A stretch of DNA of 64,000 nt, from positions 8,539,501-8,603,500 of the forward strand of contig OZ022256.1 of the NCBI GenBank assembly GCA_963978905.1, given 5' to 3'. The stretch's first letter is position 1. Each line of letters opens with the position of its first letter. This DNA comes from Trichostrongylus colubriformis (taxonomy: Eukaryota; Nematoda; Chromadorea; Rhabditida; Trichostrongylidae). The notes under the pieces are model-generated. The model was not told the DNA's origin. It ran no database searches and was given only the letters and a program-made list of their open reading frames with translations. This document shows, piece after piece, positions 45,959-56,608 of this stretch. The position numbers were made by a program, and so were the translations under genes.

Positions 45959-46139
45959 TCGAAACGGAGCGTTTCTGAGACACCAAGAATCGTAAGCCAA
46001 AAATTCCCTATACATCTGGTTCAGCCAGACGTGTTGTATTTTTGAGCTCGACTTTTCTACTTCTTCTTGAATCGCTTTTACAGAACCTGAAGGCTATCTG
46101 TCACCCATAGTGATACCCAAAGGAGTTTTCCTTTGAATA

Positions 46140-47332
46140 TTGGGTTGAGGAATAAGTTCCCGTGGTTTTTCTAACCCTGTTTTTCACACTGCTTCCTTCA
46201 TCCTCCGACGAAGCTTATAAATGTTTTAGACAGAGCTGCTCTACGGAGTGCTACTACCTTTTTTCGATTCCTTCGACTACCCATTATTTATGTGATTTTG
46301 GAAATGAAGTAAGCTGAAAGCAAAAATTGGCACTCTCGACACTTCGCCTTCCTCGTCTGCCGTCGAGACCAAAAAATTAATGCGCATATGTTTTCGATAG
46401 AGCTTTTTCAACTCTACAGAACGGTACTACTTTTTTTCCAGATAGCTCAACTTTTTGCTGTTTTTGAGACTCACAAATGCTGTACTTGCAAAAAAGTGCA
46501 CTTTCGTTATCTCCTCTTCCTCGCCTACCATCGAGATTGGAGAGGATGTGCATATATGCATTCGATAGAGCTTTTTTTTTGCTTTACAAGGTGATACCAC
46601 CGACCTTTTGAATTCTTCCATATTTTAGCTTGTTTTCGAGCATTTTCATCCCATGGTGTCAAAACTGCTCGATTTCGTCTACTTTTGGATGATCTAAAAT
46701 GGCAAAAATTGGTTGGAACAAAAATCGTAGACACTTTCTCGTAGAGCGGAAAGAGCTCTATCGAAAGATACAAAACACTCTGCCAAAAGATCATTATGCA
46801 ATTCCGAATTGAAAAACACGTGAAAGCTTATCCCTACATGCTAAAATATGACAGAATACAAAAGAAGGGTGGTATCATCCTGTAGAGGAAAGAAAGCTCT
46901 ATCGAATGCAGTTATGCAAATCTTCTTCGATCTCGATGGTAGGCGAGGAAGAGAAGATAACCACACTGCACACTTTTGCGAGTACTGCATTTCTGAGTCT
47001 TAAATACAGCAAAAAGTTAGCGATTTGAAGAAAAAGTAGCACCGTTCTGTAGAGCTAAAAAGTTCTATCGAAAACATATGCGCATAAATTTTTTGATCTC
47101 GATGGCAGACGAGAAAGATGGGGTGCGCAAGTGCCTATTTTTCGCCTTCAGCTTACTTCATTTCCAAACCTCATAAATATTAGGTAGTCGAAGGAATAGA
47201 AAAACAAATAGCAGTATTTTGTAGAGCAAAAAAAGCTCCATCGAAAACATATACAAGCTTCGGCGAAAGATGAAGGAAACAATGTGAAAAACGGGGTTGA
47301 AAAAAACCGCAAGGACTTATTCCTCATCCCAA
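46140..47332. mobile_element. Foldback element, 1.2 kb near-palindrome with internal sub-repeats
   Basis: The two halves, about 590 bp each, are inverted copies. The outer ends TTGGGTTGAGGAATAAGT and ACTTATTCCTCATCCCAA are flanked by TA (46138-46139, 47333-47334). Unit 1 lacks it near 18757. Each arm carries a motif of about 170 bp repeated about three times, recognisable by TCGATAGAGCTTTTT followed by CTCTACAGAACGGTACTAC (near 46235, 46400 and 46568, with reverse copies at 46740-47230). No transposase was recognised. TA target and terminal inversion suggest a Tc1/mariner-mobilised non-autonomous element. Confidence 0.85.
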
Positions 47333-48036
47333 TATAGTAGCAATGCTCAATGGCTTAGGCCTTTTCACAGTTGTGGTACAATGAATAATTTGTTTTGGCC
47401 CTACGCCATCTTATGCTTCTCTACCACCACTTCGGCATCGGCACAAATGCGAAATCTGCCAGATACGATTACAACCGTAAAGATTCAGTCATTTAGGATA
47501 ATTTTGAACAGATCAAAACTAGTAGCTATAGGATCATATCTTTGAATCCTACAATGAACATGAGCACTTTCGAAACACTTCACTCCACTTCCGGAATGGA
47601 AGCACAGAAGACGGAAAACTTAAGGTTGGAACGGTGAGTAGCAACCATTTCATGCGTGTTACCGATCGCTGTGAGAATGCCTCTTTGACCCACTAACTTG
47701 CTGTACACAGAAGAGCTCGCTCGAAAACCTTCTCACTAGCTTAGGCCAATTGCTTTGGAGCGACCTCCCCTACGCTGAGCTAGTGGGTTGTTGTAAGGAG
47801 AGGCAACAAAGGACACCCAAATTCTGTTCTAGAATGGGAATGCCTTGTCTCCATCGTATAAGGACCGGCTTCTCTGTGAAGCTCTAACTTTCACAATGTC
47901 AGTACCAGTACAGCAACAAGGTCCGAAGGAATCGAGCTTTTTTGTTGCCCGTATATTCATTTGTATTAGGTTGTCCCAAAAGCACACAGCAAGAAGGTCC
48001 GAAGGATTCGAGTTTTTTTGTTGCCCATATCATTTG
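47333..48036. other. Unit 2 flank left of the mariner nest
   Basis: This holds the decayed counterpart of the 18748-19128 frame. About 47911-47980 is repeated in tandem at 47987-48053, and each repeat ends in the first bases of the mariner terminus TTAGGTTGTCCCAAA. Confidence 0.6.
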
Positions 48037-48109
48037 TATTAGGTTGTCCCAAAGGTCTTGTAGGATTTTTCCAGAAAAATCAATAACTCTTATTTACTTC
48101 GAGGCAGGT

Positions 48110-48421
48110 TGTCGTGGATAACACGACACCGGAGACGACGACACCGATCTACCGGAGGCGACCTACCGCACGATCTGGCGGGAAAATGGCGGACCCGACC
48201 GTGTAAAAGGCCACCTAGGGCGCTCCCGGCAGTCGTTTTCTCTTCTTTTCCTTTAGGAGATTTTAGGAGCTATTTAACTTATTGTTGTTGTTGTTTACAA
48301 GTTGCTAAGTTGTTTAATTACCCAAGTTTGAGGTTGTACTACATAAACCTGGATTTGGTGTGGTCGTGTCAGTGTAGAAGGAACACACACATTCTAAAGA
48401 ACCGCGTGGCAGTCTAACTCA
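48110..48421 (+). repeat. BEL/Pao left LTR (312 bp)
   Basis: Identical base for base to 55856-56167. It opens with a hairpin GTCGTG-GATAA-CACGAC (48111-48127). A TATTTAA box lies at 48271, and the SL1-like sequence begins 40 bases further at 48311, close to where transcription should start. A 100-codon frame inside the LTR is chance. Confidence 0.97.
48311..48332 (+). promoter_or_regulatory. SL1 spliced-leader sequence embedded in the left LTR
   Basis: TTTAATTACCCAAGTTTGAG at 48313-48332 matches bases 3-22 of the nematode 22-base SL1 exactly, base 2 (G) also matches, and only base 1 differs (T for G). It is followed at once by GT, as SL1 is in the SL RNA gene, where this GT is the donor. No Sm site or other SL RNA parts are recognised downstream, so it is the leader exon, not a full SL RNA gene. 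The right LTR holds the same sequence at 56057-56078. Confidence 0.9.
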
Positions 48422-48439
48422 TGGTGCATCGGATGGAGC
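48422..48439 (+). promoter_or_regulatory. Primer binding site, tRNA-Gly-like
   Basis: Directly after the LTR, TGGTGCATCGG matches the complement of CCA plus the acceptor end of eukaryotic tRNA-Gly(GCC) at 10 of 11 bases; the match weakens beyond that. The zero-base spacing to the LTR end fits LTR elements. The tRNA identity is tentative. Confidence 0.6.
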
Positions 48440-48665
48440 GAATCCAAAACGAACTCAGGTCAGTCTTCTGAGAGTTCCAAGGGGAGTTTTGAGATTCTTT
48501 CCTTTTTACACTTTCATACAAGTGTAGTACAAGTTGGGAACTTGAACCACAAATCAAGTTTAAGTCGAGCCTGGAATCCAGTGAGGATAAGGTTTAACGA
48601 TTTATCAGTGCCCGATCATTGATTATCAGTGATCTCCGATATCACACCACACCAACCAAGCTGAG

Positions 48666-51600
48666 ATGGTTGCTCAAACAACAACAGTCAAGCGCCGCTT
48701 AACGCGTTTTTGCAACAAACTCGAGCAAGTTTTGCAGCGCTCTAAGGAAGAAAAGCTCGATTCCCTACAAGTTATCACGGAAGACCTTTCGAGTAAGGTT
48801 AACCTAGGCAATCTGTGCCGCCTAGAAGAAGCAGTAGGGACCGTAGAGACAATCAGTAGTCAAGTGGAGAAGGCATTAAGTGACCTATTCTCCCTCGAGG
48901 AAGGGGGTGAAGAAGCAGACCCCAACGACATAGAGCAGTATGTCACCCGTGCAGAGGGAGCTCTCGCACTCGCGCTGGAATACAGTGCACTTTTGCAAGG
49001 TAGAATACATGCGCTTAAGTCTCTGGAGGCACTGAGATTACAGCAGGCAACTCAAAGCGCAGCTACCCCCAACGTGATCCTCAATCAAGTATCAAAGCAA
49101 GCTGAGCTTCCGCCGCTCCCTGTCCCCAAGTTTACGGGCAATATTTGGGACTTCGATAATTTCTGGGAACTGTTCAACGCTAACGTCCACTCAAGGGACT
49201 TACCGGAACTGTTCAAGTTTAACTATTTATTGAATGCCCTTGATGGGGAAGCCAGAGCATCCGTGAAGAAATTTCATGTCACACCCGAGAACTACCTCAG
49301 AGCAGTAAACTTTCTTCACGCTCGGTACGGCAACCCAGAGGAACTGATCCAAAAACTAATTGATCAGCTCGACCATTACCAGTTACGCAGCTTGTCTCTG
49401 CAGGATCAACGCACGCTTTTCGAACAAGTGCAAGTAACTGTGATGCAAATGAAACAAAAAGGGGAACACGTTGATAGTCAAGTAATGGTCAAGAAAATTC
49501 TGAGCAAGTTTCCGGCGCACGTCCAGAGAGGAGTGCTCAGGAAAAAGCGTTCGCTCCCGGTGAATACGTCATTTACAATGGACGCCCTGTTTAACGCAAT
49601 CGAAGACGTCCTGTCAGAGGAAGAAATGATGAACCTTTACGTCAGTCATTCCTCTCACACGCCGTACGCAACATCGACAATGGAGACGAAGAAAAGTTTC
49701 AAGTCTCAGGAAAATATTTGCATGTTCTGCAAAGGAGAACATAAGCCCTCATTCTGTACAACGTACAAGACCCCGAGGGAAAGGGCGAAATACCTTCGGG
49801 ATCAACGACTTTGTCAGTTGTGCGCCTCACCACACCACAAGTCATCGGAATGCAAGCGTAAAAATTGCTTCAAGTGTGGGGGACCCCATCATTCATCAAG
49901 CTGTTTCAAAACTTCGCCAGCAGCAAGTGAAGTTCAGGGGAAACCCCAGCAGGCACAAGATATGCTTTTAAAGAAGACTGATGATAGAACGAAGAAGAAT
50001 GCTAAACTGACTCAAAAGGTCAACGTAGTGGCCGGAGAGGAACCCGTTGAAGAGTCTGAAGCGGCAATTCTTCAAGTTCAGTCGGATCAAGATGTTCATT
50101 CAACCACATTTCTCCCTATAGGCGAAATCCAAGTGGTCGATAACAAGAAAGGCAACCTCCGCAATGTTCCGGTTCTTCTGGACACTGGCGCAGAGATTTC
50201 GTTTATCAACAACACATTGGCTCAGGAGCTTCAGCTACCCACCATTTCAGAGACAACTCTTCTTCTCCATACATTTGGTTCCGAAGAAGTTCAGAGGAAA
50301 AAGTGCCGCATTGTGCAAGTTCAAGTCCGAGACATCGAGGAGAATTACCACGAGTTAGAGCTTGTGACACATGATGTGCTTACGAAACCAATGCGCTGTG
50401 CTCGACTGCTTGAGGAAGACGTCCAGTTCATCGAATCCCTCAACCTTCCAGTTACATTTGGGAAGAAAGGGAAACAAACACAGCCGCTTATACTTCTTGG
50501 CTGTGATCAAGTATGGAAGTTTTGGAGAACGGATAAGCCGCCAGTTCCTCTTCCATCAGGACTCCATCATATACCAACAAAAACTGGCAACCTCATCACA
50601 GGCAGACGTCTACATGGGCGACAAGTTCTTGGAATGCAAACTTGCGAAGAAGTTGAAAGATGGGACAAGTATTGGTCTCTAGAAGCACAAGTCAATACTC
50701 TCTTGGAAAGCAACAAAAATCCATCAGAGGAAGATTCGTGGGACCGTTACTGGGCCCTCGAGAACGAAGGAACTCAAGAATTCAGTGGACCGGAACACGT
50801 TGAAAAAGCCAATATCGATAGACAAGTATGGGACAAGTTCAACCAGACAATAGAACGTCGAGAAGATGGCTACTACGTGCGTCTTCCATGGAAAGAAAAC
50901 TACCTCACTCTGCCCGACAACAAAGCTATTGCTCTGAGAAGACTTATCAACACCTGGAATGCGCTTCAGCGAGACCCAGAGCTGCTACATATGTACAACA
51001 ACGTCTTTGAGGAACAAATTCGACTGAATATCGTAGAGGACGTCCCGAGACATGCCGAGGCAACCGGACCTGTAGTCCACTACATACCGCACCAAGCAGT
51101 GCTTACACCGAACAAGTTGACAACAAAGCTGAGAATCGTTTTCGACGCCTCAGCTCATTATCGAGGAAGCCCTTCTTTGAACGAAGTTCTTCATCGTGGC
51201 CCTGTGATTCTTCCACCTCTTTTCGGAATGCTTTTACGTTTCCGTGTTGGTAGGATTGGTATTATATCCGATGTCGAGAAAGCATTCTTACAAGTACGCC
51301 TCCATGAGTGTGATCGAGACGCAACAAGGTGCCTCTGGATACATACCCACAAGAAGCCTCCTACCTTGGAAAACATCAGGACTCTTCGTTTCACACGAGT
51401 CACGTTTGGACTCAACACTTCACCATTTTTATTGGCGGCTACAACACACTATCATTTGAATTCATATACGGACGACAAGGATCTCGTGGAAGAAATCAAG
51501 AGTAACTTGTACATTGACAATTTGCTCTTAACAGCCGACACTCTAGAAGAAGCAAGATACAAATACAAGCAAGTCAAGCGAATGTTCAGCGACTTGTCCA

Positions 51601-54002
51601 TGAACCTACGAGAGTTCGTTTCCAACGATCCTGCTCTACTGGACGATATAGCCACGGCAGACAAGTCCAAGGACAAGAATCCAAAGGTGCTAGGAATCAG
51701 ATGGAATTCCTCCGCAGACAAATTTCAAATAGCTTGTAAAATTGAAATGAAAGAGCCAGTGACCAAGAGAACTGTAGCAAGTTCAGTGGCCTCGATCTAT
51801 GATCCATTGGGATGGATAACTCCTCTTACACACAAAGCCAAGGTATTCATCCAGTCTCTGTGGAAAGCCAGTTATACGTGGGACGAAAAGCTACCAGATA
51901 TAAAAGTCAAGGAGTGGATAGACATAGTTAATTCTATGCATGGATTCCACAAAGACATTCCGCGAGTCATATCGAAGAGAGCAGAGGAGCAAGTTCTTGT
52001 AGTTTTCGCAGACGCAAGTTTAGAAGGTATGGCAGCATGTGCATACCTATGCTCCGATTGCTCTGCAAATCTGCTGATGGCGCGAGAAAAGCTTCCTTCG
52101 ATACGATCATCGATGACTGTGCCGAAAATGGAGTTGAACGCACTGACGCTAGCAATGCGACTAGTCAATGCACTCCTCAACCAAGTTCGAGAAGTGATAC
52201 AAGTTTGGCAAATTTACGTCTACACCGACTCCGAAATAGTACTCAACTGGCTCAGGAATCCAGGGAAAAAAGAGAAAGGAGTTTTTATCAAACACCGTCT
52301 TACCGAAATCAAGAACATTTATGAACACTTGAAGTCAATCGGACTTCAAGTCTCTTTCATGTTCGTTCCATCGAGTCAGAACCCTGCCGATTGTGCAACT
52401 CGTGGCCTACACAAGAGCGAACTTGACGAGCATTTCTGGGGGAACGGTCCGACTTTTCTACATAAGCCCACATCAGAACTGCTCACACTCAACAAAACCA
52501 GCGTCCCGTGCTTCCTGGAGCTCGAGTGTTGCGAGGAAAGGAACGAGCCTTTTGAGATTGGCGCAGCAGCCACGAGTCACCTACTTCCAGAACAGCAAGC
52601 AGGGGAACTAATCTCAAGTAGACAAGCGACAACGCTCACGAAAGCCAAGAGAATTCTGGCATATGTTCTACGATTTGTACGAGTCATAGCTCTGCGGCTT
52701 CACGCCAAGAATCCAAACAACCTTGAGATCTCGATCTCACTCAAAGAACGTTTGAATCTCGCTTCAACCACGCTAGCAGGAAGAGAGGTCAAGTACGCAG
52801 AAAAGGTACTGATTCGTCATCATCAGCGAACCTGGATCAAGTCAGCAATACTGCAAAAGCTCTGTCATTTGAATGTACAGATAGATAGCGAAGGCATCAT
52901 GCGATGTTTTGGTCGGTTGGGAAAAAGCGAAATGGAAGATGAAGCCAAATACCCCATCTTGATCTTGCAAAAGACCTTTTTGGCGGAACTCATTACACAG
53001 GAAGCTCATATTGGCGGTCATCCAGGGATCAACCACACTATGTCTATTATACGACAAAAATTCTGGATCCCACAGCTACGCTCACAAGTTACAAAGCAAT
53101 TAAGAAAATGCATAGTTTGTCAAAAACTAAATAACTTGCCATGCAAGTACCCTGACCAGCCAAGTCTTCCAGCGGAGCGAGTCGTCAAGCCACGCCCATT
53201 CGAGCATGTTGGGTTGGACTACTTTGGACCGCTTACAATCACCATTCCAACTAAGGAAAAAGAAAAATGTTATGGCGTTATAATTACCTGCATGGTAACA
53301 CATCTAATTCACCTGGACATCGTTCCTAATCAGTCGACGAGTGCTTTCCTTCAGATGCTCCGTAGATTTTTTGCACGAAGAGGCGTTCCTTCCTCAATCA
53401 CCAGCGATAACTCACCGAGGTTCCTTCTAGGTGAAACAATTTTCAAGGAGTGTTCGACTGCAGCGCAGAACGACCCTGCAGTGGCTCGAGAGATCAGCAA
53501 CAAGGAGATTGATTGGCGACATATAACCCCATACGCTCCCTGGCAAGGAGGTTTCTATGAAAGGTTAATCAAGTCAGTCAAGTACTCTCTCTATAAGACG
53601 CTAGGGAAGACCATACTCTCGTTTGAGGAGCTATCAACGGTGGTCGTGGAAATAGAAGCACTGCTGAACACTCGACCGCTTCTCTACTCCGACTCGAGCT
53701 TCGATCGAGAGAGCGTTTTGAGACCCATCGATTTTGTCCAGAACGAGCTACAAGTTCATTTCCCCTTCGAGTCGCTTGACAATGAACTCGAAGATTCCTC
53801 TTATGCTCCACCCCTAGATATTCCAGCGATTCACACAAAAACACAAGCAATCCAGGCTCTACAAAGCTCATGTAAGCTGACCGAAAGATTCTGGCAAGTC
53901 TGGTACACCCAGTATCTTACTGCGCTGAGGGAGAAATATCAAACAAAAGTAGGAAAAAAAGAGCCGGAGCGTTGGTGCCAAAGGTGGGGAGTCTCGTGTT
54001 GA
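48666..54002 (+). CDS. BEL/Pao Gag-Pol polyprotein (1778 codons)
   Basis: A single frame from ATG 48666. In order: an N-terminal coiled-coil-like region; a gag domain of the DUF1759 type (about residues 135-310; PLPVPKFTGNIWDFDNFWEL); a cysteine/histidine module (residues 352-412; CMFCKGEH then CQLCASPHH and CFKCGGPHH); aspartic protease of the DUF1758 type with LLDTGAEISF (Asp 506); RT starting near residue 815 with the active-site box YIDN at 949-952 (family usually YVDD or YVDN); Pao-type domain and RNase H-like region (FADASLEGMAA, YTDSEIVLNWL); integrase zinc finger (His 1448, CIVCQKL); and a DDE core with Asp 1518, Asp 1581 and Glu 1632. The frame ends within the conserved integrase tail, which continues in the -1 frame. 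No internal stop. Expressed in the cytoplasm as a polyprotein cleaved by its protease. Confidence 0.95.
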   Translation: MVAQTTTVKRRLTRFCNKLEQVLQRSKEEKLDSLQVITEDLSSKVNLGNLCRLEEAVGTVETISSQVEKALSDLFSLEEGGEEADPNDIEQYVTRAEGALALALEYSALLQGRIHALKSLEALRLQQATQSAATPNVILNQVSKQAELPPLPVPKFTGNIWDFDNFWELFNANVHSRDLPELFKFNYLLNALDGEARASVKKFHVTPENYLRAVNFLHARYGNPEELIQKLIDQLDHYQLRSLSLQDQRTLFEQVQVTVMQMKQKGEHVDSQVMVKKILSKFPAHVQRGVLRKKRSLPVNTSFTMDALFNAIEDVLSEEEMMNLYVSHSSHTPYATSTMETKKSFKSQENICMFCKGEHKPSFCTTYKTPRERAKYLRDQRLCQLCASPHHKSSECKRKNCFKCGGPHHSSSCFKTSPAASEVQGKPQQAQDMLLKKTDDRTKKNAKLTQKVNVVAGEEPVEESEAAILQVQSDQDVHSTTFLPIGEIQVVDNKKGNLRNVPVLLDTGAEISFINNTLAQELQLPTISETTLLLHTFGSEEVQRKKCRIVQVQVRDIEENYHELELVTHDVLTKPMRCARLLEEDVQFIESLNLPVTFGKKGKQTQPLILLGCDQVWKFWRTDKPPVPLPSGLHHIPTKTGNLITGRRLHGRQVLGMQTCEEVERWDKYWSLEAQVNTLLESNKNPSEEDSWDRYWALENEGTQEFSGPEHVEKANIDRQVWDKFNQTIERREDGYYVRLPWKENYLTLPDNKAIALRRLINTWNALQRDPELLHMYNNVFEEQIRLNIVEDVPRHAEATGPVVHYIPHQAVLTPNKLTTKLRIVFDASAHYRGSPSLNEVLHRGPVILPPLFGMLLRFRVGRIGIISDVEKAFLQVRLHECDRDATRCLWIHTHKKPPTLENIRTLRFTRVTFGLNTSPFLLAATTHYHLNSYTDDKDLVEEIKSNLYIDNLLLTADTLEEARYKYKQVKRMFSDLSMNLREFVSNDPALLDDIATADKSKDKNPKVLGIRWNSSADKFQIACKIEMKEPVTKRTVASSVASIYDPLGWITPLTHKAKVFIQSLWKASYTWDEKLPDIKVKEWIDIVNSMHGFHKDIPRVISKRAEEQVLVVFADASLEGMAACAYLCSDCSANLLMAREKLPSIRSSMTVPKMELNALTLAMRLVNALLNQVREVIQVWQIYVYTDSEIVLNWLRNPGKKEKGVFIKHRLTEIKNIYEHLKSIGLQVSFMFVPSSQNPADCATRGLHKSELDEHFWGNGPTFLHKPTSELLTLNKTSVPCFLELECCEERNEPFEIGAAATSHLLPEQQAGELISSRQATTLTKAKRILAYVLRFVRVIALRLHAKNPNNLEISISLKERLNLASTTLAGREVKYAEKVLIRHHQRTWIKSAILQKLCHLNVQIDSEGIMRCFGRLGKSEMEDEAKYPILILQKTFLAELITQEAHIGGHPGINHTMSIIRQKFWIPQLRSQVTKQLRKCIVCQKLNNLPCKYPDQPSLPAERVVKPRPFEHVGLDYFGPLTITIPTKEKEKCYGVIITCMVTHLIHLDIVPNQSTSAFLQMLRRFFARRGVPSSITSDNSPRFLLGETIFKECSTAAQNDPAVAREISNKEIDWRHITPYAPWQGGFYERLIKSVKYSLYKTLGKTILSFEELSTVVVEIEALLNTRPLLYSDSSFDRESVLRPIDFVQNELQVHFPFESLDNELEDSSYAPPLDIPAIHTKTQAIQALQSSCKLTERFWQVWYTQYLTALREKYQTKVGKKEPERWCQRWGVSC
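53954..53960 (+). promoter_or_regulatory. A7 slippery heptamer at the pol to 3' ORF overlap
   Basis: In the pol frame the run is read GG(A AAA AAA) GAG, the X-XXY-YYZ register required for -1 ribosomal slippage. The -1 frame has no stop between here and 55865, and a slip joins the two halves of the conserved integrase C-terminal domain. No strong downstream stem was seen by eye; a small CGAGG/CCTCG stem lies about 50 bases on. A lost A in this homopolymer is the alternative explanation. Confidence 0.55.
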
Positions 54003-55867
54003 TCTGCGACGAGGTCCAACCTCGACACATGTGGCGGATGGGGAGAATCAGCGCCCTACCAACGAACAGAGATGGAGTCGTCAGAGAAGCAGTGATCAAG
54101 TTACCTTCACATAAACATATAAGAAGGCCGATAAATTTGTTAGTCCCATTGGAATTAGAGGACACCGCTGAGAACGACTGTCAAGATGAACAAGATACAC
54201 GTCACAGTGAAACCCAAGAGGCAGACGGCATTGCACAAGAAGAACGGCAAGTTGTGGAGCCCGCTCATGGTTACAACTTACGTTCACGCTCGCGGCAGTC
54301 GCAAGAGCATAGAAACGGCTCAGCAAATGTTGACCGCAAATGGAAAAGACCGCTGTGGGTATTAGCTCCAACATACCGCAAAGTAAAGAGCTCCCACGTG
54401 CGTAACCTTCATGGGCCTCTCGTTGTCACAATAATAGGGTTACCCAATAAAAAGTTTCTCTCTGTGCGGCCCGTTAACCCAATACGCCTCTGCAAGCCCA
54501 TAAGGCAGCACGAGAAGAAAACCACCTCACTGTATTTCAAGTTCAGTTATATTTCAAGACAATACATAAGTGCTGTCGAATGCGCGAATTCACACGACAT
54601 CGATTTCAGGATGGCTACACGCGACGTCGATGGAGATGCTGCTTACCTCAGCAGATTACTCATCAGATCGCATCCAAGTGCTGAGCAGCTCGAGAACGAA
54701 CTTGAAAGGTGTTTCAATGAGATACAACGTTATATTACTGTTTCGCGTACTATTCGTAACCATTTCAAGTTTATCCAGTCCGATGACCCTTTCAAGAAAG
54801 CCGGGGCGGGGGAGAGGGTCCTCCTTCTTACGAATTTCAGACACTCTGCCAGCACGGTGAAGGAAGTATTGTTGAGAATGGGAACCAGATTCATCCTTAC
54901 TGAGAGGATTTACGCGCGTCACGCAAGTACTGGAGGAGTGTCCTCGGTTCGCTATGAAGATTGGTTGGTCAAGGACTTCGGATCCCACAAAATTGGAGTC
55001 ATCAACATGACCATAGAGATGGAACTCAGACCTCTCATTGAAGTCATCAAGCAGACAGAGGAGCTCCTTACGAAAGCTGAAAAGGAACTCAAGAAGGAAG
55101 TTTGTGAAAGTCATTCACAGCAGTCAAGTGAAGTCAGTGAGAATGTCAACAAGTTTCAGCAAGTTCTGAAGGAGCAGACGGAGGAAATCAAGTCCTTGAA
55201 GGCAAGGCTGTCATCTTTGGAGGTTTGTATGAATGATGCAGATCAACATTTAAAACTGCGTGATCAAGGAGGACATGAAGAAGAAGGTATGGAAATCACT
55301 GACGACGAGTACCTATCCAGGCTAATTGAAGGAACCAGGGACGACGATGAATTTGCTAGATCAAGTAGACGTGAGGCTCAATCCAGCTCCAGATATAGTA
55401 CCTCCACTGGGGACTTCGAGGACCAGCGCCGCTGGATCGAATCGATGGAGGACGCACTCAAAAGATACCCGTACCGCAAGTTAGCTCACATTTCGGAAGG
55501 CATACAGCCAAATCGTCCTTGCAGTTTCTGTGGAGCGCAATATGCTCATTTTTCTGACTCCTGTCCTTCCGTAAGAGACGCTCGTACAAGGGAGCAGATC
55601 GTAGCGTCAAAAAACCTATGTCGCTTCTGCTTAGAAAGATGTGGCGACGGTATTTGCGGCGACAAACAAAGGGAGTGCTTTTACTGTGCCAGAGTGCACG
55701 GCACACCTTTCCAAGACACGATACCGAGAGATGGGGGCCATCACAAGGTACTGTGTCCTGTTCCAGACGCGAAGCGACAAATGGAAATACGTCTCGAAGA
55801 TGCTATCCGCGAATGGAAGGAAATGGGAAGCCGCACTAAATGGAATGGCCGGGAGTGTCGTGGATAA
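53957..55867 (+). CDS. BEL/Pao second frame: integrase tail plus novel 3' region with gag-like zinc module
   Basis: The -1 frame is open across 53957-55867, with a TTG at 53972 and no nearby ATG, so entry by frameshift is likelier than by initiation. It first encodes the integrase-associated DUF5641-type domain (PKVGSLVLICDEVQPRHMWR). It continues about 570 residues with no family I know: a basic stretch, a region around MATRDVDGDAAYL (ATG at 54612, a possible separate start), and a coiled coil (about residues 350-425 counted from 53972; EELLTKAEKELKKEV, LKARLSSLEV). It ends in a Cys/His cluster from residue 517: CSFCGAQYAHFSDSC, LCRFCLERC, CFYCARVHG and HHKVLC, the same spacing style as the gag module. 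There are no envelope hallmarks (no signal peptide, no membrane anchor). The stop is 12 bases inside the right LTR. Confidence 0.8.
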   Translation, partial: KRAGALVPKVGSLVLICDEVQPRHMWRMGRISALPTNRDGVVREAVIKLPSHKHIRRPINLLVPLELEDTAENDCQDEQDTRHSETQEADGIAQEERQVVEPAHGYNLRSRSRQSQEHRNGSANVDRKWKRPLWVLAPTYRKVKSSHVRNLHGPLVVTIIGLPNKKFLSVRPVNPIRLCKPIRQHEKKTTSLYFKFSYISRQYISAVECANSHDIDFRMATRDVDGDAAYLSRLLIRSHPSAEQLENELERCFNEIQRYITVSRTIRNHFKFIQSDDPFKKAGAGERVLLLTNFRHSASTVKEVLLRMGTRFILTERIYARHASTGGVSSVRYEDWLVKDFGSHKIGVINMTIEMELRPLIEVIKQTEELLTKAEKELKKEVCESHSQQSSEVSENVNKFQQVLKEQTEEIKSLKARLSSLEVCMNDADQHLKLRDQGGHEEEGMEITDDEYLSRLIEGTRDDDEFARSSRREAQSSSRYSTSTGDFEDQRRWIESMEDALKRYPYRKLAHISEGIQPNRPCSFCGAQYAHFSDSCPSVRDARTREQIVASKNLCRFCLERCGDGICGDKQRECFYCARVHGTPFQDTIPRDGGHHKVLCPVPDAKRQMEIRLEDAIREWKEMGSRTKWNGRECRG

Positions 55868-56167
55868 CACGACACCGGAGACGACGACACCGATCTACCG
55901 GAGGCGACCTACCGCACGATCTGGCGGGAAAATGGCGGACCCGACCGTGTAAAAGGCCACCTAGGGCGCTCCCGGCAGTCGTTTTCTCTTCTTTTCCTTT
56001 AGGAGATTTTAGGAGCTATTTAACTTATTGTTGTTGTTGTTTACAAGTTGCTAAGTTGTTTAATTACCCAAGTTTGAGGTTGTACTACATAAACCTGGAT
56101 TTGGTGTGGTCGTGTCAGTGTAGAAGGAACACACACATTCTAAAGAACCGCGTGGCAGTCTAACTCA
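55856..56167 (+). repeat. BEL/Pao right LTR (312 bp)
   Basis: Identical to the left LTR and containing the second SL1-like copy at 56057-56078. The purine tract preceding it is weak at the boundary (GGGAG); a better purine run, GGAAGGAAATGGGAAG, lies about 25-40 bases upstream. Confidence 0.97.
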
Positions 56168-56260
56168 CAGGTCTAGGCGGTTCAGAAATATGGTAGAACG
56201 ATCTCTAAGCTTTCTAGTGAAGTATATATTGACCCACCAGATTCCGTGTAGAGAGCTATA

Positions 56261-56608
56261 GTGCCCGTAGTTGATACCCACCCAACACGCGGTGTCATCT
56301 ACTATGAGTGGTCTTGTAACACCAAAGCGACGGAAGCTTGCCACTCCACCAACGCTGCATTGGGCAAGGGATGTGTGAGCTACGGGACCGTGCGCCGCTG
56401 GATCATCAGCTTCAGCAACGGCGAGATTGACATGGAAGACAAGCTACGGACGGGACGCCCACACGCATTCGACGACGAGATGCTGCTTTCCGCCGTTCGA
56501 GCCGATCTTGAAACCACCGTGCGCGAGCTGACGGAGAGGAATGGACAAGCACCCATAAGCGTAAATCGTCGCCTCCACGAGCCGGGGTATCGGAAGGTAC
56601 TGTCGTGA
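56261..56608 (+). pseudogene. Mariner transposase, N-terminal frame
   Basis: The 115-codon frame contains the paired helix-turn-helix DNA-binding region of mariner transposases, ending in RTGRPHAFDDEML where the family has SGRP. The rest of the enzyme follows in two other frames up to about 57130, including all three segments of the DDD catalytic triad, separated by at least two frameshifts and several stops. The BEL/Pao insertion lies upstream, in the 5' untranslated part. It no longer encodes a complete enzyme. Confidence 0.8.

Follow-up and report, generated by a model that had tools for sequence, protein, structure and literature searches.

An SL1 spliced-leader sequence lies inside the long terminal repeats of several BEL/Pao retrotransposon families of Trichostrongylus colubriformis and may form part of their R region

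Here, we show that a copy of the SL1 spliced leader (the SL1 box) stands inside both long terminal repeats (LTRs) of a BEL/Pao retrotransposon in the nematode Trichostrongylus colubriformis, and that the box is present in at least six BEL/Pao families of the same genome. The identity of the box with the SL1 of the host is clear, and the box seems otherwise to be the sole feature in common among LTRs that are dissimilar to one another. In the reading that we favour, and to which we give an even chance, the element is young, and its LTR copy of SL1 is the R region or the 5′ edge of the R region, captured from host RNA and retained in these families.

The analysis started from a window of 64,000 nucleotides on contig OZ022256.1, in which the following features are found, all on the forward strand.

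48105 to 48109, + strand: upstream copy of the 5-bp target-site duplication CAGGT, read in the window sequence
48110 to 56167, + strand: complete BEL/Pao element with both ends present, recognised by its LTRs, target duplication, primer site and reading frames
48110 to 48421, + strand: 5′ LTR, 312 nt, TG...CA, 100% identical to 55856-56167
48271 to 48277, + strand: TATTTAA, TATA-like and a putative promoter element by its sequence, 40 nt upstream of the SL1 box
48311 to 48332, + strand: SL1 box of the 5′ LTR, TGTTTAATTACCCAAGTTTGAG, bases 2-22 exact with 1 mismatch (base 1), then GT
48342 to 48347, + strand: CATAAA, a weak hexamer resembling a poly(A) signal and putatively acting as one, 9 nt after the SL1 box
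48422 to 48432, + strand: putative primer binding site motif TGGTGCATCGG, abutting the 5′ LTR
48456 to 48464, + strand: CAG/GTCAGT, the best donor-like site, between primer site and gag, with 8/9 consensus bases
48666 to 54002, + strand: gag-pol frame, 1778 aa, with Pfam matches
54604 to 54609, + strand: TTTCAG, a candidate acceptor-like site directly 5′ of the G-ATG of the 3′ ORF
54611 to 55867, + strand: 3′ ORF, 418 aa, in the env position, with a Cys/His-rich C-terminus and its stop codon within the 3′ LTR
55856 to 56167, + strand: 3′ LTR, 312 nt, TG...CA, 100% identical to 48110-48421
56057 to 56078, + strand: SL1 box of the 3′ LTR, TGTTTAATTACCCAAGTTTGAG, bases 2-22 exact with 1 mismatch (base 1), then GT
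56168 to 56172, + strand: downstream copy of the 5-bp target-site duplication CAGGT, read in the window sequence

The window element is a genuine BEL/Pao LTR retrotransposon, as is evident from the domains in one frame, the TG...CA LTRs, the 5-bp duplication and the nearest proteins. Pfam matches in the gag-pol frame comprise DUF1759, an aspartic protease, RVT_1, Peptidase_A17 (Pao, at 1.7e-38) and the zinc finger Integrase_H2C2. The best 8 of 244 pol relatives show 43-50% identity over 99-100% of residues 1-900, and the seven of these eight with a named source all come from Ancylostoma or Haemonchus; a search of viral contigs with a 400-aa part of pol returned no relatives. The full 312 nt of the LTR were obtained from the genome search, a repeat scan of the window alone having shown 300 of them. 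The primer binding site TGGTGCATCGG is presumably of the tRNA-Gly type. The gag-pol frame stops within the integrase C-terminal region (DUF5641) and is continued in another frame (window 53972-54002), where the T. colubriformis protein P0125 reads through; the window copy thus looks frame-broken at this position. Upstream of the element, nested imperfect inverted repeats with 8 arm pairs (46137-47335) form a fold-back or palindromic repeat, and downstream (56261-56608) a short frame resembles, by eye, the start of a mariner-type transposase. A neighbouring BEL fragment, L029, was also considered and set aside, as it contains neither direct repeats of at least 60 nt nor SL1 at up to 3 mismatches.

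The sequence-only reading of this DNA had described 21 of 22 SL1 bases followed by GT in each of two identical LTRs of a BEL/Pao element, 40 nt behind a TATTTAA motif, and all of this is borne out, the one mismatch being a T instead of G at base 1. At up to 3 mismatches the 64-kb window contains no SL1 site beyond the two LTR boxes, and 0 are expected by chance (100 shuffles). In the genome searched (331 Mb, 52 contigs), about 0.0025 matches of a random 22-mer with at most 1 mismatch would be expected at equal base frequencies. The window family occupies at least 25 LTR places on five contigs. The reading had also named absence of the leader from other family copies as what would speak against it; SL1 is intact in 24 of the 24 family LTRs that span the site, the 25th (L025) ending inside the box, and in L024, read as a solo LTR with the duplication ATCCC, the sequence immediately 5′ of the box is gone but the box remains. 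Such retention proves little by itself because the family is young: the LTR pairs of single elements differ at only 0-3 compared positions (11 pairs, gaps aside, one of them compared over only 213 positions). Likewise, the absence of variable columns from SL1 (0/22, against 30/312 over the LTR) is not significant (P about 0.10), and within-family invariance was rejected as proof of selection. Folding of the RNA around the box revealed no special structure (z-score 0.55). A bacterial promoter and terminator scan was empty, and is not applicable here; the SL1 20-mer occurs 0 times in viral contigs and 0 times in prokaryote genome contigs.

The SL1 box is not unique to the window element. A genome-wide search finds 1,267 exact matches to SL1 bases 3-22 and 0 to the reversed pattern, and allowing the 22-mer up to 3 mismatches gives 2,477 sites, with 5 for the control. 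SL RNA genes are included in both counts, and many copies are inexact, as the count nearly doubles when 3 mismatches are allowed. Of the 1,267 exact matches we read the first 30 by coordinate (L030-L059), all on one chromosome. Clustered by similarity of more than 80 nt in their flanks, these make up 17 groups; the family of the window element accounts for four of the 30, among them both window LTRs. BEL-type proteins match within 1.5 kb of 15 of the 30 loci, in 9 of the 17 groups, although the match at L038 is weak and on the opposite strand and that at L059 concerns the 3′ ORF type only. The queries were 122 relatives of pol and the 3′ ORF, a BEL-based set that is uninformative on Gypsy elements carrying the box, and the eight groups without a protein match may be solo or decayed LTRs, other elements or retrocopies. 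Six of the 17 groups are complete, with an LTR pair 4.5-9.8 kb apart and the box in both LTRs; in the same six, the primer motif TGGTGCATCG follows 15-206 nt 3′ of the box and is itself followed by the N-terminal part of a BEL/Pao protein. In eight LTR pairs, the LTRs are 290-733 nt long, the box starts at position 199-508, and 15-204 nt separate it from the LTR end as aligned.

Around the box, these LTRs have little in common. Over 250 nt before and 38 nt after it, 14 of the 15 pairs among the six families are without blastn similarity (E 0.01), and the remaining pair gives a single 12-nt match. The LTRs of L030 and L033 do start with the same 8 nt, TATAGAGA, which is a sign of common descent, and the groups may go back to a single old ancestor. 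Individual loci show further peculiarities. The 592-nt LTRs of the 4.5-kb-spaced pair L049/L050 are 100% identical, with AT in place of GT after the box. At L037 the primer site extends as TGGTGCATCGGCCGGGAATCGAACCCGGGCCGCCC, like a long complement of a tRNA 3′ half, and a second TGGTGCATCGG begins 77 nt after the first, 3′ of the SL1 box. L056 carries a full SL1 with GG, then ATGCC..., unlike the LTR contexts, and from this arrangement could be an SL1-tagged retrocopy.

For the host leader itself, an SL1 RNA gene array is found at L060 (C1:31911300-31912700), with a unit spacing of about 450 bp. The three units read carry the identical 22-mer, and each has GG at bases 1-2, SL1, then gtactttt..., an intron, an Sm-like stretch and a 3′ stem-loop (by eye). 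The LTR box of the window thus resembles the host genes in the 22-mer and the GT that follows it, and differs from them in lacking the array, the GG, the intron, the Sm-like site and the stem-loop; in the window the sequence 3′ of the box differs from that of the host genes (by eye), which rules out an SL RNA gene inside the LTR. An SL1-tagged processed retrogene without LTRs is ruled out as well, the box being internal to paired LTRs. Rfam at its gathering score reports neither SL1 nor 5S in the 1.4 kb of L060: the SL1 model thus fails to detect the genes of this species, and there is no sign of 5S linkage. Since true SL1 genes are missed too, the other Rfam scans, which gave one tRNA match (in L059) at gathering score and one chance match at E up to 10, are not evidence. 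Ahead of the array, the first 31.9 Mb of C1 contain 51 scattered exact SL1 20-mers, some of which may be SL RNA genes as only the first 30 were read; GG at bases 1-2 is absent in 36 of the 51 and present in 15.

What are the edges of the conserved box? Bases 3-22 are exact because the loci were selected for them, and the flanking positions are unselected. Base 1 varies among the 17 groups (A 8, T 5, G 2, C 2). Of these groups, 16 have G and one has A at base 2; base 23 is G in 12, A in 4 and T in 1, and base 24 is T in 15, A in 1 and G in 1. The box therefore extends from SL1 base 2 to an RT (purine, T) beyond base 22, against a mean flank agreement of 0.25-0.28 in the 17 groups and 0.24-0.35 in the six families. 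GT stands directly 3′ of the box in 11 of the 17 groups (binomial P about 5e-10 if the groups are independent, which is not certain), and four of the six others have AT. Beyond this, likeness to the GTAC that follows SL1 in the host fades, with A matched in 8/17 and C in 7/17, and the next eight bases agree with the host SL RNA genes in 1-7 of 17.

The 5′ edge is informative on the place of the box within the LTR. AATAAA lies immediately 5′ of the box in L030 and L045 and overlaps box base 1 in L033, and another ATAAA hexamer abuts the 5′ side of the box in L054 and in each of the unpaired loci L039 and L059. In all, 4 of the 6 structured families, or 6 of the 17 groups, have AATAAA or ATAAA at the 5′ edge. 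In L049 AATAAA is 3′ of the box and not 5′, and neither this family nor that of the window has AATAAA ahead of the box. If AATAAA acts as the poly(A) signal, as we infer, cleavage would fall in or just after the box, so that R must be or contain the box. In the L033 family the LTR after AATAAA consists of the box and 15 nt, then the primer site, which leaves little room for R besides the box. The AATAAA at the 5′ edge in several families, together with a primer site only 15 nt further on, suggests that the R region consists of SL1 or begins with it. For the window family, the arrangement of motifs is compatible with RNA starting at about 48301-48311 and with a short R whose 5′ part holds the box. 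The U3/R border, where the sequence-only reading had placed the leader, is thus a likely position in view of these hexamers and of the primer sites 15-206 nt 3′.

How would a host leader come to occupy this position? In the reading that we favour, SL1 would most likely be the 5′ end of the genomic RNA of the element and, in the 3′ LTR, most likely the terminal repeat just ahead of poly(A). The most likely source of the box would be host SL1 RNA, by way of trans-spliced element RNA and then reverse transcription, with the cap-adjacent first base of SL1 lost during capture; the loss of base 1 in most copies, like the absence of GG from 36 of the 51 scattered sites, would fit copying from capped RNA if such copying ends before the cap. 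The box would then have been retained in several BEL/Pao families while the surrounding LTR diverged almost beyond recognition. Three things probably favour its retention: the first strand transfer needs matching RNA ends, element RNA led by SL1 would resemble an SL1 mRNA of the host, and any new trans-splicing event at the box end TTTGAG/ would re-create the existing sequence. Whether initiated at the box or trans-spliced to TTTGAG/, the RNA would come out the same, and its ends would stay matched. Capture by way of trans-spliced RNA, the origin put forward in the sequence-only reading, is thus plausible, but it does not predict the conserved T at base 24 and leaves this base and the G at base 23 unexplained. 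Counting against it are also the GG kept in 15 of the 51 scattered sites and the lack of the expected ancestor, as the analysis found no sister LTR that lacks SL1 and has an acceptor at the junction. Capture has its strongest counterargument in the T at base 24, which speaks instead for a DNA element common to SL RNA genes or a 5′ splice site.

The first of these two alternatives, which we consider rather unlikely, holds that the box is a promoter or initiator in the DNA common to SL RNA genes, so that one factor starts both transcripts, and RNA mimicry or capture is unnecessary for its retention. The SL sequence of Ascaris is itself reportedly required for SL RNA transcription. The conservation up to the RT at bases 23-24, where three host SL RNA genes have GT, would be in line with such an element, as would the TATA-like TATTTAA 40 nt upstream of the window box. 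On the other hand, SL1 bases 2-22 are unchanged in dissimilar LTRs, which is stricter than usual for a binding site (3-22 having been selected as exact), and the 10 bases upstream are unlike the upstream region of SL genes (2-7 of 17 per position).

A bolder form of the favoured reading, which we think unlikely, takes SL1 as the R region of an entire radiation of BEL/Pao elements in nematodes, with host trans-splicing supplying or restoring the 5′ copy of R. An RNA starting anywhere upstream would gain SL1, which would pair with the SL1 before poly(A) and so allow the first strand transfer. If this is true, host RNA processing builds a terminal repeat of a retroelement and keeps this repeat equal to the host leader.

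The second alternative, a 5′ splice site, has the box and its GT as an encoded first exon that is cis-spliced from SL1/GT to acceptors like TTTCAG/GATG and thereby mimics SL1 trans-spliced mRNAs; we regard it as quite improbable. The enrichment of GT after the box (11 of 17 groups, with the P value given above if these are independent) speaks for it, and so does the acceptor-like TTTCAG/G ahead of the 3′ ORF, which is intact in 8 of the 9 copies covering the site, the exception being TTTCTG in L014. The 3′ ORF, coiled-coil-like in its middle and Cys/His-rich at its end (by eye), matches no Pfam family above cut-off and has 4 relatives, in two strongylid genera (T. colubriformis and Haemonchus contortus), one T. 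colubriformis protein being 97% identical over 55% of the ORF length. Among these database relatives, P0122 begins at the homologous Met, while P0123 and P0125 are fused to other sequence just upstream of it, as would fit a splice at this place. In addition, the spliced mRNA of the element Cer1 occurs both with and without SL1 in the accessible portion of its report (PMC3315495). Yet the GT after SL1 in the window scores 4/9 consensus bases, the same as 142 of the 417 GTs of the element, and is far inferior to CAG/GTCAGT at 48459, which scores highest of all 417 and is unchanged in 10 of 10 matching 5′ copies; moreover, 6 of the 17 groups lack GT, four of these having AT. The suggestion in the sequence-only reading that the embedded GT may be a donor therefore finds backing in the enrichment among groups and little in the window element itself. 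It is the donor at 48459 that would pair with the acceptor TTTCAG/GATG ahead of the 3′ ORF, and the resulting cis-spliced mRNA would still bear the encoded SL1 near its 5′ end.

We consider it very unlikely that an ancestral BEL/Pao element captured SL1 just once, long ago, and that descendant families inherited it passively, without present function. Common ancestry would account for the BEL/Pao identity and common primer motif of all six structured families, and for the first 8 LTR nt being the same in two of them, but the box persists while the LTR around it has lost almost all similarity, and a passively inherited box should have decayed along with its surroundings. A chance match, which the sequence-only reading had already thought improbable, is refuted by the counts (none expected in the window; 1,267 exact 20-mers against none for the reversed pattern), and with separate families, that of the window being on five contigs, the probability of either chance or an assembly artefact is negligible.

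An association of SL1 with the BEL/Pao superfamily is not new, as PAO elements of Brugia malayi flanked by SL1 have been published; the sequence-only reading had allowed for earlier reports. According to the part of that study accessible to us, B. malayi has 120 SL1 copies outside SL RNA genes, of which 60 are no more than 1 kb away from a PAO element, with an occasional layout of two same-strand SL1s around one PAO element. Its authors infer that RNA expressed from an element received SL1 and that the two then integrated together (Foster et al, 2020; PMC7181701). The likeness is close, namely BEL/Pao elements with two same-strand SL1s away from SL RNA genes, and this layout is found in the window and in the LTR pairs. 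Compared with what that text describes, the box is here base-exact inside the LTR, in a strongylid, in several dissimilar families, with defined edges and a likely R position. Cer1 of C. elegans is likewise a nematode LTR element using SL1, but belongs to a different superfamily (Ty3/Gypsy): as far as the accessible text goes, its spliced mRNA of 2.4 kb acquires SL1 by trans-splicing, its 8-kb RNA is not trans-spliced at that site, and no encoded SL1 is mentioned (PMC3315495). Dinoflagellate retrogenes with a relict spliced leader are similar in that a DNA-encoded leader remnant was fixed by reverse transcription, but these are, in the excerpt available, gene retrocopies rather than LTR elements with the remnant built into their structure (PMC12014239). 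The canonical SL1 of H. contortus, as given in the available passages, is identical to the SL1 used here (PMC7652881). In the portions accessible to us, a further H. contortus paper lists elements only (PMC3156134), a paper on TRIM elements goes no further than competition between an LTR transcript and the leader for an acceptor (PMC4558846), and two chaetognath papers contain nothing on leaders in LTRs (PMC2566580, PMC12460157). Within this partly accessible, open-access literature, no report of SL1 as an R region or in many BEL families was found, and the base-exact place in the LTR, the several dissimilar families in a second nematode group, the edges of the box and its likely R position appear to be new.

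If SL1 does serve as R, the replication of a retroelement superfamily has become coupled to trans-splicing in its host, and insertions of LTRs and solo LTRs would scatter encoded SL1 through the genome. Such scattered copies confound methods that take SL1 in an RNA as proof of trans-splicing. The conservation of SL1 among nematodes and the RNA start of BEL elements would then become directly testable questions.
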